From positions 372,001-436,000 of the forward strand of contig NZ_CP107020.1 in the NCBI RefSeq assembly GCF_025725725.1: 64,000 bases of DNA, read 5' to 3'. Below are positions 29,989 through 37,038 of this stretch, in pieces (position 1 is the first letter of the stretch; each line of letters begins with the position of its first letter). Below the pieces are notes generated by a model. That model had not been told where the DNA came from. It worked only from the letters and a program-made list of their open reading frames with translations, and made no database searches. The DNA comes from Brachybacterium huguangmaarense. GTDB lineage: Bacteria > Actinomycetota > Actinomycetes > Actinomycetales > Dermabacteraceae. The translations under genes and the position numbers were made by a program.

Positions 29989-30798
29989 TCAGCTGCCGCC
30001 GTCGGAGGCGCCGCCCGCGTCCGAGGCGCTCGAGCCGCCGGCCGCGGCCACCGCGGAGGCGAGCGAGCCGGGCGTGGACCAGTCCGTGAACGGCGTGCCG
30101 TCGATGAGCACGTACGGGGTGCCGTTCGTGTCCGTCTTCTTCGCCTCGCCCTCGACGACCTCGTGCAGCCATGAGGCGTGCGTCTTGTCGGTGATGCACT
30201 GGCCGACCGTGTCGGAGGCGCCGGCCTGGGTCGCGTAGTCGGTGAGCTGGGCGTTGGTCAGCCCTGCCGAGCCCTCGGCGGGCTGGTTGTCGAACAGCAG
30301 GTCCGAGAAGGCCCAGAAGTTCTCGGGGTCGTCGTCCCAGACGCACGCGGCCGCGTTCGCCGCCCGCGTCGAGTAGTCGCCCGTGCTCGAGTTCCCGTCG
30401 AGGAACGTGCGGGTGTGCACGTGCAGGGTGATCTCGTCGTTCTGGATCATCGAGTCGAGGTCGTCGCCGTTGATCTGGTGGAACTGGCCGCACACGGGGC
30501 ACATGTAGTCGAGGTACAGGTCCACGACGGGCTTGTCCTTCCGGGCGCCGATCTCGTAGGACGAGGCGTCGGCGGCCATGCCCGTGGGGGCCGTCACCGG
30601 GCCGGCGGGCCGGGTGCTCTGGTAGATCCAGTAGCCGATCCCGAACACGACCACGAGCGCGACGACGGTGATCACGGAGATCACCCCGGTGCGGATGCGC
30701 TTCTGGCGCCGCAGCTCGGCCTGCCGTTGGCGGCGCAGCTCCTCACGCTGCGCCTCGCGGCGCTCCTGTGCTGAGCTGGACGATCCGGACGGCGCCAT
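29989..30798 (-). CDS. DsbA-like thiol:disulfide protein, membrane-anchored
   Basis: A 269-residue protein: a charged N-terminal coil rich in Arg/Glu (about 10-38), one membrane helix (TGVISVITVVALVVVFGIGYW, about 38-58), then an extracellular thioredoxin-fold domain with the active site CPVCGQF near residue 98 and the cis-Pro region NGTPYVLIDG near 223. It probably oxidises or isomerises secreted proteins. GGGAG lies six bases before the ATG. The C-terminus is an ASDAGGASDGGS tail like that of EfeB. Confidence 0.9.
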   Translation of the reverse strand: MAPSGSSSSAQERREAQREELRRQRQAELRRQKRIRTGVISVITVVALVVVFGIGYWIYQSTRPAGPVTAPTGMAADASSYEIGARKDKPVVDLYLDYMCPVCGQFHQINGDDLDSMIQNDEITLHVHTRTFLDGNSSTGDYSTRAANAAACVWDDDPENFWAFSDLLFDNQPAEGSAGLTNAQLTDYATQAGASDTVGQCITDKTHASWLHEVVEGEAKKTDTNGTPYVLIDGTPFTDWSTPGSLASAVAAAGGSSASDAGGASDGGS

Positions 30799-30987
30799 GA
30801 AGTCTCCCGGGGTGCTGCGCGTGCGATGGACAGGGTGCCGCAAGGCGGCGCGCACAGTCTACGGGGACGTCCCTGAGCGTCCCCGTGGCGCGGGCGCCAT
30901 CGCGCCTCGCCGCCAGGGTGGACGTCGGGCGAGAGAGCCGGGCAGGTCGCCACGGTGGGGCGTCGCGGCGTGGCCCCACGCCGTCGC

Positions 30988-31026
30988 GTCACGCCCTGGC
31001 GTCACGCCCTGGCGTCACGCCCTGGC
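30988..31026. repeat. Three tandem 13-bp units
   Basis: GTCACGCCCTGGC is repeated exactly three times without spacers in the 428-bp gap (30799-31226) between the kinase end and the DsbA-like start. No gene is supported in this gap. Confidence 0.9.
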
Positions 31027-31042
31027 GTCGCGCCGTCACCGT

Positions 31043-31226: not shown

Positions 31227-33494
31227 TCACGCCCTCCAGGGCAGCAGCTCGTCCAGCCGCGGCCACGAGAAGAAGGGGATGTAGTCGACCTCTCCGCCGC
31301 GCGCGAGCGCGGTCGCGATCACGGCGCCCAGCAGCAGCACGAGCAGACCGCCGACCACGAGCGCCCACACGCGGTCCGGCGCGGCGGCGTCGAGCATCCG
31401 GTGGGCGCCGTCGCGCGTGGTGCGCCCGCCGATGCCGAACCAGGTCAGCAGCAGCGTCACGGCGACGGCGCCGGCGTAGAGCGCCGAGGCGGGCAGGTCC
31501 GTCGCGAGCACGTAGTGGCAGACGGCGTCGACGCTCACGGCGAGCAGCGCGCCCAGGATGAGCGGGAACAGCGCCGTCAGGGCGATCTCGACGAGTCCGA
31601 GCGCGAAGCGCGGGAGCGAGGCGAAGCCGGCCCCCCAGGCCGCCCCGGTCCCCTTGCCCCGCGCCCGGCCCGCGGCGACCGTGCGGTGTGAGCGCTCCCA
31701 GGTGCGGCTGAGGGCGCCGAGGACCAGGAGCAGGACGAGAGAGACGTAGGGCGCGACGGCGGCGAGCGCCACGAGCACCGCGTGGCCGAGCCAGACGAGC
31801 AGGGGGCGTCGCGGCGGCGGCACGGGCAGCGCGTAGCCGCCCGGCGCGAGCGGCTGGCCGCCCGGCCCGTAGCCGTAGGGCGCGGGCTGCGGCGTCAGGG
31901 TGGGGTTCGGGGCCACCGCGGGCGCCGGGGAGCGGACGTCCTGGGGCGGATAGCCCTGGGGCGACGGCTGGTAGCCGGGCGCGGCGGGCGCGAAGGCCTC
32001 GGGAGCCCGGCGGACGGGGCCGGGATCGGCGCCATACGGCGGAGGCATGTCGTCACGGATCGCGGGCATCACGCGGGTGTCGGCCCGGACGGGCGGGATG
32101 ACCTCGGTCGCGGGCCCGTCGGCCCCCACCACGGGGAACGCCTCGGTACGGTCTGCCCGGCCCGCCCGCTCCGTGCGCTCGTCCCGCGCGTCGCCCCCGC
32201 GCGCATCGCCGCCGACGGCCGGCAGCACCTGGGTGCGATCGGGATCCGCGGCGGGAAGGGCCTGGGTCGCCTCGGCATCGGAGGCGGACGGGGCGACGTG
32301 CGGGAGCGCCCGGGTGGCGTCGGCGTCGACGACCGGGAGGGCCTGGGTCGCCGCGGCATCGGAGGCGGGCAGGGCCTGGGTGGCGTCCGCATCGGAGACC
32401 GGGAGGGCCTGCGTGGCGTCCGCCTCGCGACGCGGGAGCGCCTCGGTGGCCTCGCCGCCGCGCAGCGCCTGGGTCGCGTCCGCGTCCCCTGCGGCGCCCG
32501 CCGCGAAGGCCGCGGTGGGGGCGCCGGCGACGGGGAGCGCCTGGGTGCGGTCCGGGTCGCCCGCCGCGAGCGCCTCGGTCGGACCGGGATCGTCGAAGCG
32601 CTCGAGGTCGATGCCCTCGAGCCGCGCGAGCAGGTCGGCGGGGTCCTCGCGCCGCTGGGGATCGGCGCGCAGGGCGTCGCGCAGCCACCCGGCGAGCTCG
32701 GTCGGGAGGCCGTCGACGTCGAGCTCGCCGCGGTCGGCCCGGAAGAAGACGATCTCCGCGCGCCCGGATCCGAAGGGCTCGCGGCCGGTCGCGGCGAAGG
32801 CGAGCACGGCGGCCCACGACCACCAGTCCGAGGCGGTCGAGGTGATGTTGGTGCGCGCCACCTCGGGGTCGAGGTAGGCGGCGGTCCCCATCACGAGCCC
32901 CGTGGAGGTCAGGCGGGACTGCTCGGCGGCCTGGGCGATGCCGAAGTCGATGATGACGGGGTCGAGCCCGGGCCCGTCGGGGTCGTACTGCGTGAGGTCC
33001 TCCACTTGGGCGCGGCGCAGCAGGATGTTGGAGGGCTTGAGGTCGCGGTGCACGATGCCGGCGGCATGGATGTCGCGCAGGGTCTCCCCCAGCACGATCC
33101 CGATCTCGCGGACCGCCTCGGGATGCAGGGCGCCGTGCTCGCGCACCGCGTCCTCGAGGGTCGGGCCGGGCACGAAGTCCGTGACCACGAAGGCCTCGGG
33201 CGACTCGAGCTCGGCGTCCAGGACGCGCACGATGTTCTCGTGGCGCACGCGCTGCTGGGCCGCGACCTCGCGCTCGAGGCGCTCGCGGGCACGGGGGTCG
33301 TCCGCGATCTCGGGGCGCAGGAGCTTGATGGCGACGTCACGGCCGTCGGCGTCGCGCGCACGGTAGACGATGCCCATGCCGCCCGCGCCGATCCGGGAGA
33401 TCACCTCGTACCCGGACTCCTCGGCGAGCATGCGCAGGCGGGGATCGCGCTGGACGGCGCGCGCGGGCGAAGACGAGGAGGACGGTTCCGTCAT
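31227..33494 (-). CDS. Ser/Thr protein kinase with TQxLP repeat array and C-terminal membrane domain
   Basis: A 755-residue Hanks-type kinase. The catalytic domain (about 30-300) is complete: RIGAGGMGIVYRA glycine loop, VAIKLL lysine, HRDLKPSN near 148 and DFGIAQ. Residues about 301-470 are a linker with some 14 copies of a motif like DADATQALP (variants TEALP, TRALP, TQVLP, TEAFP, TEVIP, TRVMP). A Pro/Gln/Tyr-rich stretch follows, then four or five membrane helices (about 565-745). There are no PASTA domains. The repeats look like kinase target sites: Thr, Gln at +1, hydrophobic at +3, acid at -2, also the pT-x-x-hydrophobic form bound by FHA domains. TAGCAT ends seven bases before the ATG at 33494 (leaderless). 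It is divergent from the copper operon. Confidence 0.93.
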   Translation of the reverse strand: MTEPSSSSSPARAVQRDPRLRMLAEESGYEVISRIGAGGMGIVYRARDADGRDVAIKLLRPEIADDPRARERLEREVAAQQRVRHENIVRVLDAELESPEAFVVTDFVPGPTLEDAVREHGALHPEAVREIGIVLGETLRDIHAAGIVHRDLKPSNILLRRAQVEDLTQYDPDGPGLDPVIIDFGIAQAAEQSRLTSTGLVMGTAAYLDPEVARTNITSTASDWWSWAAVLAFAATGREPFGSGRAEIVFFRADRGELDVDGLPTELAGWLRDALRADPQRREDPADLLARLEGIDLERFDDPGPTEALAAGDPDRTQALPVAGAPTAAFAAGAAGDADATQALRGGEATEALPRREADATQALPVSDADATQALPASDAAATQALPVVDADATRALPHVAPSASDAEATQALPAADPDRTQVLPAVGGDARGGDARDERTERAGRADRTEAFPVVGADGPATEVIPPVRADTRVMPAIRDDMPPPYGADPGPVRRAPEAFAPAAPGYQPSPQGYPPQDVRSPAPAVAPNPTLTPQPAPYGYGPGGQPLAPGGYALPVPPPRRPLLVWLGHAVLVALAAVAPYVSLVLLLVLGALSRTWERSHRTVAAGRARGKGTGAAWGAGFASLPRFALGLVEIALTALFPLILGALLAVSVDAVCHYVLATDLPASALYAGAVAVTLLLTWFGIGGRTTRDGAHRMLDAAAPDRVWALVVGGLLVLLLGAVIATALARGGEVDYIPFFSWPRLDELLPWRA

Positions 33495-33635: not shown

Positions 33636-33860
33636 ATGACCACGAGCACCTACGGCATCACCGGCCTCACCTGCGGGCACTGCGCGAGCGCCGTCACCGA
33701 GGAGGTCTCGGAGATCGACGGGGTCACCGAGGCGAACGTCGAGCTGGTCGCGGGCGGCACCTCGTCGCTCACCGTCACCTCCGCCGCACCTCTCGCGCGC
33801 GAGGATCTGGTCGCGGCGATCGCCGAGGCCGGAGAGGCCTACGAGCTCGCCGATGACTGA
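33636..33860 (+). CDS. copZ: Copper chaperone CopZ-like (HMA domain)
   Basis: A 74-residue heavy-metal-associated domain with the Cu(I) site GLTCGHCAS near residue 10 and the ferredoxin-like fold pattern ending [14 protein letters not shown]. It delivers Cu(I) to the ATPase encoded next; the two genes overlap by 8 bases. GGAGGA precedes the ATG at 33636. Confidence 0.93.
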
Positions 33861-36180
33861 CACCCTGCACCGCCCCGCCGGGGCCCCGGGCGAGCAGCCC
33901 GCGACCGGAACCCGCCGCGTCGATCTCGACGTGTCGGGCATGACGTGCGCGAGCTGCGTCGCGCGCGTCGAGAAGAAGCTGCGCCGCGAGGGCGCGACCG
34001 AGGCGGCGGTGAACCTCGCGCTCGAGCGGGCCACCGTCGTGGTCGACGCCGACGGACCGACCGACGAGCAGCTCGTCGCGGCCGTCGAGAAGGGCGGCTA
34101 CGGCGCCCGGGTGCGCGACGACGCGGCGCAGCTCGCCCCGGGCGTCGATCCGGGCGCCGACAGCGCCGCGCGCGCCGACGCCGAGCAGCACGACGCCCTG
34201 CGCCGCACCCTCGTCTCGGCCGCCTTCAGCGTGCCGATCGTCGTGCTGTCGATGATCCCGCCGCTGCAGTTCCCCGGCTGGCAGTGGGTCGTGCTCGTCC
34301 TGGCCACGCCGGTCGTCGTGTACTGCGCGTGGCCCTTCCACCGGGCCGCCGCGATCAACCTCCGCCACGGCGGCACCACCATGGACACCCTCGTCTCGCT
34401 CGGGGTGTCGGCCGCCTATCTGTGGTCCCTCTGGGCGCTGCTGTTCGGGGGCGCCGGCATGATCGGCATGCGGATGGACTTCTCGCTCACGCCCGCGCTC
34501 GCGGGCGGGCACCACGAGGTCTACTTCGAGTCCGCCGCGGTGGTCACGACCCTGATCCTGCTGGGGCGGTGGGCGCAGGCCCGCGCCGTGCACCGTTCGG
34601 CCGAGGCGCTGCGCGCGCTCATCGACCTCGGAGCCAAGGACGCCACGATCCTCGATCTGGACCCCGACGGCCGCACGGTCGAGCGCACCGTGCCGATCGG
34701 GCAGGTGCGCGTCGGCGATGTCTTCGTCGTCCGGCCGGGCGAGAAGATCGCGACCGACGGCGTCGTCGTCGCCGGCTCGAGCGCCGTGGACCGCTCGATG
34801 CTCACGGGCGAGAGCATGCCCGAGGAGGTCACGGTCGGGGACGACGTCGCCGGAGCGACGGTCAACGCCGACGGGCGCCTCGAGGTGCGGGCGACGCACG
34901 TCGGCGCCGACACCCAGTTGGCGCACATCGCGCGGCTCGTCGAGCACGCCCAGACCTCCAAGGCGCCCGTGCAGCGCCTCGTCGACCGCATCAGCTCGGT
35001 ATTCGTGCCGATCGTGATCGTGCTCGCGATCCTCACCCTCGTCGGCTGGCTCGTCACCGGGCACGGGGCCGAGCAGGCGTTCACGGCCGCCGTCGCGGTG
35101 CTGATCATCGCGTGCCCGTGCGCCCTGGGCCTGGCCACCCCCACCGCGATCATGGTGGGGACGGGCCGCGGGGCGGAGCTGGGCGTGCTGATCCGCTCGG
35201 CCGAGGCCCTCGAGGCCACCCGGGAGGTGCGCACGATCGTGCTCGACAAGACGGGCACCCTGACCACCGGGACCATGGCGGTCGAGTCCGTGACCGTGCT
35301 CGACGACGCCCGGCGCGCCGAGGTCCTGGCCCTCGCCGCCGCCGTCGAGCGCGGCAGCGAGCACCCGATCGCGCGGGCCGTCCTCGACGCCGCCGAGGCG
35401 GACGACGCCGCGGCCGGGCGTCTGCGCGCGCTCACGGCCACCGAGACCACCGCCCAGGCCGGGGCCGGCGTGCGGGCCCAGGTGGACGACGGCGCCGCGG
35501 TGCGCGCCGTCGAGGTGCGCCGGGCCGACGAGACCGACGCCCTCCCCCGACGCCTCGCGGACGCGGTCGCCGCGGCCGGGCGCACGGGGTCGACGGTGTG
35601 CACGGTGCTCGTGGACGGGGTCGTGAGCGGCGTGATCGCCCTCGGCGACACGGTCCGGCCCGAGACCCCGGCCGCCCTCGACGCGCTGCGCGCCTTGGGC
35701 ATCCGCCCGGTGCTCGCGACCGGGGACTCCCCCGCCGCCGCGCGGGCCGTCGCCGCCGAGCTCGGCATCGAGGAGGTCCACGCGCGCGTCACGCCCGAGG
35801 ACAAGCTGCACCTGGTCGAGACGTTGCAGCGTGAGGGCACGGGGCAGGTCGCGATGGCCGGGGACGGCATCAACGACACCGCGGCCCTCGCCCGCGCCGA
35901 CCTCGGCATCGCCATGGGCTCGGGCACGGACGCGGCCATGGCCAGCGGCGACATCGTGGCCTCCGACGGCTCGATCGCGAGCGTGCCGACCGCGATCCGT
36001 CTGGCCCGCGCGACCCTGCGCACGATCCGCTGGAACCTGTTCTGGGCGTTCGTCTACAACGTGATCGCGATCCCGCTCGCGATGCTGGGGCTGCTGGGCC
36101 CCCTCGTGGCGGGCGCCGCCATGGCGTTCTCGAGCGTGTTCGTCGTGAGCAACTCGCTGCGCCTGCGCCGCTTCCGCTGA
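33853..36180 (+). CDS. copA: Copper-exporting P1B-type ATPase
   Basis: A 775-residue heavy-metal ATPase. It has an N-terminal HMA domain with GMTCASC near residue 31 and eight membrane segments. The intramembrane metal site CPC is near residue 421 ([14 protein letters not shown]), the phosphorylated Asp of DKTGTLTTG near 465, an SEHPIA motif near 505 and the hinge [10 protein letters not shown] near 670. CPC with an HMA indicates Cu(I) export. It overlaps copZ and ends at a strong hairpin. Confidence 0.96.
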
Positions 36181-36217: not shown

Positions 36218-36360
36218 GGCAGGACTCCCGGTGCACGGCGGGCACGCCGATGCACGGTGGGCACAGGCGAGATCCCCGCCACCACTGTGCGAGGATCGGG
36301 ACTGCCGCTCCCGGGCGCACGCCCCGGAGATGTACGTTCCGCACCTTCGAGGGGATCGCC

Positions 36361-37038
36361 ATGCGCAGCAACCTGTTCGACGCCAGCAACCGGGAGAAGC
36401 AGACCACGGACCGGTGGACCCTGCAGTCCCCCAAGCTCCTGCGCTGCGCGCTGACTCCGCAGTCCCCCGAGATCATCGCCTCGGCGGGCGCCATGGTCGC
36501 CTACCAGGGCCAGATGGACTTCTCCTACCAGGGCTCGGGCGGCGGGATGAAGCTGCTCAAGAAGATGGCGACGGGCGAGGGCGCGAACATGATGCGCACG
36601 CGCGGCAACGGCGAGGTGTTCTACGCCCGCCGCGCCCACGACATCTTCCTGCTGCAGCTCGAGGGCGACGCGCTCACCCTCAACACCTCGAACATGCTCG
36701 CCTTCGACGCCTCGATCCAGTGGGACATCCGTTCCCTGGGCGGCGCGGGCATCATGGCCGGCGGCCTGTTCAACCTGCTGCTGCAGGGCCACGGCATGGT
36801 CGCCGTGACCTCCGATGGGCCGCCCATGCTGCTGGACTGCTCGCAGCAGCCCACCTACGTCGACCCGCAGGCCGCGGTGTGCTGGTCCGCGAACCTGCAG
36901 CCGCAGCTCAAGAACGACTTCAAGTTCGGTTCCCTCATCGGTCGCGGCTCCGGCGAGTCGTTCCAGCTGGCCTTCCACGGCCCCGGCTTCGTCGTGGTCC
37001 AGCCGTCCGAGGGCCTGCCCACGGGACAGGCCGGCTGA
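36361..37038 (+). CDS. AIM24 family protein
   Basis: A 225-residue beta-rich protein of the AIM24/TRAP-like family. Recognisable parts are LRCALTPQSPEIIASAGAMVAYQG near residue 25, FYARRAHDIFLLQLEGDALT near 87 and the closing PGFVVVQPSEGLP. No enzymatic motif and no signal peptide are seen; the function of bacterial members is unknown. The ATG at 36361 has GAGGGGA upstream and is preferred to longer frames. It appears to be a single-gene unit. Confidence 0.85.
   Translation: MRSNLFDASNREKQTTDRWTLQSPKLLRCALTPQSPEIIASAGAMVAYQGQMDFSYQGSGGGMKLLKKMATGEGANMMRTRGNGEVFYARRAHDIFLLQLEGDALTLNTSNMLAFDASIQWDIRSLGGAGIMAGGLFNLLLQGHGMVAVTSDGPPMLLDCSQQPTYVDPQAAVCWSANLQPQLKNDFKFGSLIGRGSGESFQLAFHGPGFVVVQPSEGLPTGQAG

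Follow-up and report, generated by a model that had tools for sequence, protein, structure and literature searches.

The disordered juxtamembrane linker of a polytopic Hanks kinase in Brachybacterium huguangmaarense carries a long run of threonine motifs, and we think it somewhat probable that this linker acts as a multivalent phospho-Thr strip read by FHA proteins. As read from sequence, the motif, its restriction to Thr, the rule of a hydrophobic residue at +3, its conservation, its variation in copy number and its sharing with PknA and PknB are all clear; phosphorylation, an FHA reader and a scaffold role for the linker are what we infer from them. The window referred to here is the whole stretch of 64,000 nucleotides that was analyzed, in which the kinase (the window kinase) and its parts lie as follows:

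31227..33494, minus strand: membrane Ser/Thr protein kinase gene, 755 aa (translation; Pfam Pkinase 2e-39)
32583..33410, minus strand: catalytic domain, about residues 29-304 (Pfam Pkinase; alignment)
31812..32582, minus strand: linker, residues 305-561, Ala/Pro-rich and predicted to be unstructured (linker cuts; model)
32067..32579, minus strand: array of 13 T-[QER]-x-[LIVMF] motifs, residues 306-476 (motif count)
31230..31811, minus strand: C-terminal membrane domain, residues 562-755 (hydrophobicity; low-confidence model)

The window kinase has a Hanks kinase domain complete with its catalytic residues. The Pfam Pkinase match (2e-39) covers residues 29-245; Lys57, HRDLKPxN and DFG are invariant in a 10-row alignment, with K57, D151, N156 and D183 unchanged in all ten kinase rows and Thr196/Ser197/Thr198 of the activation loop equally invariant. 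The C-terminal domain (residues 562-755) contains four hydrophobic stretches and gave no match in a Pfam scan. An AlphaFold model of the protein (mean pLDDT 47.6, pTM 0.31) was used for helix positions and the unstructured linker only; it places about five long helices, at low confidence, in residues 564-731 and leaves residues 305-563 almost without structure (pLDDT <50), most linker blocks having a pLDDT of ~25-35. The gene was matched in all 38 Brachybacterium genomes searched. The score against NF033483 (Stk1/PknB) is 182.7 bits, below the curated cut-off of 450, and that against AfsK (NF053615) is 184.8 bits, below a cut-off of 1300, in a match spanning residues 15-440. An anti-phage defense kinase would be expected to match beyond the generic kinase domain and to occur patchily on mobile DNA. 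PADLOC matches (PD-T4-6, MAD6), for which no cut-offs are given, are mostly confined to the kinase domain, a few of them extending to residues 357-460, and the gene matches in all 38 genomes of the genus. The Pfam scan found no PASTA repeats in the window kinase, which agrees with an earlier suggestion that the array is built into this protein instead of PASTA sensing; for the organism the suggestion does not carry over, however, as the genome encodes an adjacent PknA and PknB and a second PASTA kinase, making two PASTA kinases apart from the window kinase.

A sequence-only reading of this DNA had described about 14 Thr-x-x-hydrophobic motifs between the catalytic and membrane domains, and the gene coordinates, the number and the position all hold. 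The array (residues 306-476) lies between the Pkinase match and the hydrophobic C-terminus, and it has 13 copies of T-[QER]-x-[LIVMF], or 14 in the linker if any T-x-x-[LIVMF] is counted. The 13 are at residues 306, 317, 341, 350, 361, 372, 383, 394, 410, 421, 450, 463 and 473, separated by 11, 24, 9, 11, 11, 11, 11, 16, 11, 29, 13 and 10 residues. By comparison, 1000 residue-shuffled versions of the linker gave a mean of 0.36 motifs and a maximum of 3. The acid at -2 to which the same reading drew attention is present in 9 of the 13 motifs (by reading), but it is a lineage trait: the most enriched acid position across the genus is -3, where Glu is 3.1-fold enriched (all Thr, 26 linkers). A 15-base pattern for T[EQ][AV][LIVM]P has 25 matches in the organism's own genome versus 3 for the reversed pattern, of which seven are in the window array, one in PknB, one in a frame with an LRV_2 domain, and the other 16 in candidate frames with a single copy each. 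The LRV_2 frame (L190, own genome 822794-826808; 556 aa) has one hydrophobic segment, a weak DUF6636 match and a low-complexity stretch with TQAM, TDVLP and TEVLP, and is possibly another carrier of the motif.

Across Brachybacterium we cut 34 complete linkers, leaving out five rows of four genomes (G013, G027, G029 and G032, the last in two pieces) in which the match was in pieces or the linker was incomplete. The sequence-only reading would have been refuted by repeats conserved in no relative with the same kinase; motifs are present in all 34 linkers, so this check does not refute it. Together these contain 200 T-motifs against 12.1 in shuffles, and the Ser version occurs 5 times against 7.1 expected, that is, at the chance level. 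Copies per linker range from 3 to 13 with a median of 6, the window kinase having the most (n = 34). The position of the hydrophobic residue is precise: 200 of the 226 T[EQR] dipeptides have one at exactly +3, and the corresponding counts at +1, +2, +4, +5 and +6 are 0, 52, 7, 74 and 102. More generally, LIVMF is found at +3 of 269 of 480 linker Thr but of only 14 of 278 linker Ser. Among the 200 motifs, the +1 residue is E (138), Q (35) or R (27); A (121) and V (36) are commonest at +2; +3 is L (141), I (29), M (18) or F (12), with Val absent; +4 is Pro in 136; and 150 have an acid among the six residues upstream.

Pairwise comparison indicates that the threonine motif is kept by evolution while the linker sequence around it drifts. 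In 18 pairwise linker alignments the motif Thr is kept in 94 of 97 cases and the +3 hydrophobic residue also in 94 of 97, versus 71 of 158 for other linker Thr and 49 of 165 for linker Ser; identity is 0.87 in motifs and 0.57 in spacers. Because the rows share ancestry and the pairs reuse genomes, and are not independent, these ratios overstate the independent evidence for conservation. They bear on a rival account of the array, namely that the linker is neutral low-complexity sequence that grew as a minisatellite and that the motifs are passengers of tandem duplication. Five of the window motifs (350-394) are indeed at 11-residue spacing and form a 33-base tandem repeat (76% matches), the others being irregular, and copy number does range from 3 to 13. 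Against this, third codon positions vary between units of the window array while the residues stay, which shows that the array is not only a run of fresh copies; other species retain the motif with irregular spacing, and PknA and PknB have isolated copies of it, one or two each. We consider neutral growth highly improbable, and reject it as the sole cause, since motif residues are kept as spacers and third codon positions drift.

The recurrence in PknA and PknB deserves a closer look. The linker of the window organism's PknB has TTVL, TQVLP and TQLIP, and the PknB linkers of the genus (28 loci) contain 53 T[EQRT]x[LIVMF] versus 6.7 expected. This count started from 30 loci, two of them without a PknB linker (L223, L230), and the 28 include the window's own locus (L203) and L217, whose linkers were cut to 5 and 16 residues. 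By reading, TTVL or TTIL is found in all 26 full PknB linkers and TEALP in 21 of the 26. In PknA, TRTAAMP is found in 28 of 29 proteins (30 loci, one of which gave no PknA). The genus thus has ~1 copy of the motif core in PknA, ~2 in PknB and 3-13 in the window kinase family, and as PknA and PknB carry the same core, the motif looks like a currency shared by these kinases and multiplied in the window kinase. A core common to three kinases could also be a linear motif, T-x-[AV]-L-P, that works without phosphorylation by binding a partner which the three kinases have in common, such as a divisome protein or the phosphatase. The frequent Pro at +4, which belongs to neither a kinase nor an FHA rule, would favor such a motif. 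Yet the retention of Thr in 94 of 97 comparisons points to the Thr hydroxyl and the +3 residue and not to the whole core, and relatives keep only the T-x-x-hydrophobic spacing in different flanks (TSVIPP, TMAV), making this explanation distinctly improbable.

To return to the phospho-Thr strip, the pattern of Thr only, a hydrophobic residue at +3 and acids upstream would fit phosphorylation and FHA binding. FHA domains strictly need pThr, and pTxx[I/L/V] is one of their two motif classes, according to PMC8786283, which agrees with the FHA preference that the sequence-only reading had invoked. The linkers are of this T-x-x-[ILV] type, with Thr and not Ser. Counting against a docking strip are the Pro at +4, which lies outside the FHA rule, and the absence at +3 of the Val that the rule allows. 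The likeness to mycobacterial kinase targets that had also been claimed is partial. In M. tuberculosis, the sites lost on depletion of PknA prefer acidic residues at -1 and from -3 to -6, Pro at -1 and at +2, Leu/Val at +3 and a basic residue at +4 (PMC7164672). The motif here shares the upstream acids and the hydrophobic +3, but the Pro at +2 and basic +4 are missing, +2 being mostly Ala/Val and +4 mostly Pro.

Candidate readers exist in the same genome, which encodes five FHA domains, one of them in a protein with FhaA_N (5.7e-34). This FhaA and a small FHA protein are ~4-5 kb from pknA; we call the small protein FhaB-like, presuming so from its position and size. Co-occurrence of FHA proteins with the kinase, proposed earlier as a check, turned out not to discriminate: FhaA is found in 40 of 40 genomes with the kinase and in 18 of 20 without it, and being near-universal it makes co-occurrence compatible with docking and not evidence for it. 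Linkage of kinase and FHA genes, which would support such a system and is not strictly part of its definition, was not seen in the 23 loci examined outside the genus (tblastn with the five FHA proteins of the own genome). With FhaA near-universal and no FHA gene linked in those loci, the FHA reader is a putative one. The docking-platform interpretation therefore keeps its sequence side (Thr-specific, hydrophobic at +3, acids mostly upstream, conserved), and phosphorylation, the kinase responsible and the FHA partner are its conjectural side.

The same evidence could be explained by multisite autophosphorylation in which the repeats act on the kinase itself, whether as a substrate-like tail with an autoinhibitory effect, as a counter or timer or by switching electrostatics at the membrane, with no dedicated FHA reader. 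Hanks kinases accept Ser too, and a kinase preference does not readily explain why the Ser version should be at chance (5 versus 7.1); it also leaves the recurrence of the same core in PknA and PknB unexplained. On the other side, upstream acids and a hydrophobic +3 are favored by kinases no less than by FHA domains. Juxtamembrane phosphorylation sites of PknA and PknB are known in mycobacteria (PMC4389566), and phosphorylation of the StkP linker is important for division in a bacterium that lacks FHA domains, where linker mutants change seven Thr (PMC12077195). We regard autophosphorylation without a reader as rather unlikely.

The kinase family is not confined to Brachybacterium. Searched with a profile of its membrane domain, the order has members in 222 of 297 genomes, representing 73 of 94 genera; of 197 genomes sampled from the class, 38 have one, 7 of these being of the order. 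Sixty relatives outside the genus were fetched, of which 56 have a readable kinase frame (four loci were left out). The 56 linkers contain 79 T[EQR]x[LIVMF] versus 10.4 expected and 7 of the Ser version versus 8.7 expected. A hydrophobic residue is found at +3 of 42% of 481 Thr but 12% of 409 Ser (background 14%); +2 is also enriched outside the genus (34% of Thr), which counts against the docking-strip reading. Individual linkers have their own versions of the repeat: five TSVIPP in one (L154), eight T[SAR]A[LVIM] in another, five of them before Pro (L147), three TQVVP in a third (L142), and five TEVL plus two TEALP in a different genus of the window organism's family (L127). A locus from another order of the class (L242) has four DRTMAV[DE] linker repeats, with the T-x-x-hydrophobic spacing in different letters.

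A tree built from 110 kinase domains requires eight changes of the state "three or more T.[AVM][LIVM]P", seven of them forced by well-supported branches; some are threshold effects inside Brachybacterium, where G011 scores 2, G012 scores 1 and their close relative G034 scores 3. From these sequences, multi-copy linkers appear to have arisen or vanished several times across the order. Outside Brachybacterium, 29 of 77 rows are without any T.[AVM][LIVM]P, and hence the family does not always have the proposed docking strip, many copies being optional.

The gene that follows the kinase is a conserved neighbor in the order. The neighbors discussed here are:

29989..30798, minus strand: DsbA/MdbA-like protein with an N-terminal hydrophobic segment and a Thioredoxin_4 domain with CPVC (Pfam 7.2e-19; PDB 4k6x 4e-20)
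33636..36180, plus strand: CopZ-like frame 33636-33860 (by reading) and copper P-type ATPase 33853-36180 (Pfam/family matches)
36250..37038, plus strand: AIM24-family protein, divergent neighbor of the kinase (Pfam; region comparison)

The DsbA-like gene is the next on the strand, downstream of the kinase. Its closest solved relatives are 4k6x (disulfide oxidoreductase), 4ihu (DsbG) and 5c00 (MdbA), the first two of which we take to be M. tuberculosis proteins. The protein has the Thioredoxin_4 domain and CxxC of a DsbA/MdbA oxidoreductase, and a disulfide-forming activity is predicted. One other Thioredoxin_4 match was found in the genome, and the CxxC is kept in all 35 DsbA-like neighbors. 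The gene follows the kinase in 14 of 14 genus regions examined, in all 21 of the 23 outer loci that are long enough to tell (20 close, one, L025, at ~3 kb), and lies ≤3 kb away in 6 of another 9 genomes from the order; it was not within 3 kb of the kinase in any of 11 genomes outside the order. Of the order's 44 testable loci, 41 have the pairing, at up to ~3 kb, many of these loci being close kin. This gene order suggests that the kinase may be tied to the extracytoplasmic thiol state, the DsbA-like protein being a possible input module. Between the kinase gene's end and the DsbA-like gene lies a 13-base tandem repeat (30959-31034, 5.8 copies).

On the other side, the AIM24 gene is divergent from the kinase in 13 of 14 genus regions examined and was not detected in the kinase neighborhood in 23 loci from outside the genus. 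In the window, the kinase and AIM24 genes are separated by the CopZ-like/copper ATPase pair, which does not belong to the kinase system. In 13 relatives with AIM24 nearby, the AIM24 start is <1 kb from the kinase match (by coordinates), for which reason the copper pair looks inserted in the window lineage.

If the linker is a phospho-Thr strip, the window kinase, or PknA/PknB in trans, would phosphorylate Thr of the T-[EQ]-[AV]-[LI]-P repeats, and FHA proteins, most likely FhaA and/or the FhaB-like protein, would bind the phosphorylated repeats. With the same core in 1, ~2 and 3-13 copies, PknA, PknB and the window kinase would be competitors of different valency for one set of readers, and the window kinase would gather the most reader molecules at the membrane. 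The DsbA-like neighbor suggests the extracytoplasmic thiol state as a possible input signal. Carried to its limit, this would be a graded valency code, in which PknA, PknB and an order-wide polytopic kinase share a phospho-Thr/FHA motif, a DsbA-like thiol sensor switches the third kinase as a multivalent hub (possibly a condensate), and repeat number has been repeatedly tuned in evolution. As a whole such a code is quite unlikely, but if true, the hub would draw FHA readers either to the cell-wall kinases or away from them.

Docking of FHA proteins on the phosphorylated linker of a kinase is a known principle. The multiplication of the motif, the ladder of copies across three kinases and the DsbA-like neighbor seem to be new as far as we have seen, and no paper on the kinase family or on such an array was found in the open-access literature. 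The natural series of ~1, 2 and 3-13 copies in one genus offers a test of whether reader recruitment scales with valency, tandem phospho-peptides copied from the array are a possible tool for finding readers, and the conserved pairing with a DsbA-like gene gives a first guess at the input signal of the kinase family.

Juxtamembrane recruitment of FhaA by PknB is reportedly traced to Roumestand 2011. The closest known system is this PknB-FhaA docking of mycobacteria, in which the juxtamembrane part of a membrane Hanks kinase recruits FhaA once its linker is phosphorylated (PMC6180346 and PMC12077195). The window kinase is likewise a membrane Hanks kinase with a juxtamembrane linker, but its family is a separate one, in which the membrane domain is polytopic and PASTA repeats are missing, and it has up to 13 motif copies where PknB of the genus has about two. 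From the PASTA family NF033483 (Stk1/PknB), with which it shares the kinase domain (182.7 bits), it is set apart by a score below the cut-off and by the lack of PASTA repeats. Juxtamembrane phosphorylation of bacterial kinases is known and its role is poorly understood, according to PMC12077195. In StkP of pneumococcus, as in the window kinase, Thr residues lie in a flexible kinase linker, and those of StkP are phosphorylated with a role in division; unlike the window kinase, StkP is a PASTA kinase, its organism is without FHA domains and no repeated motif was seen in the part of that source available. CwlM-FhaA is another case of phospho-Thr docking on FhaA, in which a second site strengthens binding; CwlM differs in being a substrate and not a kinase, and its FHA peptide is not of the T-[EQ]-[AV]-L-P kind (both from the available portion of PMC6180346).
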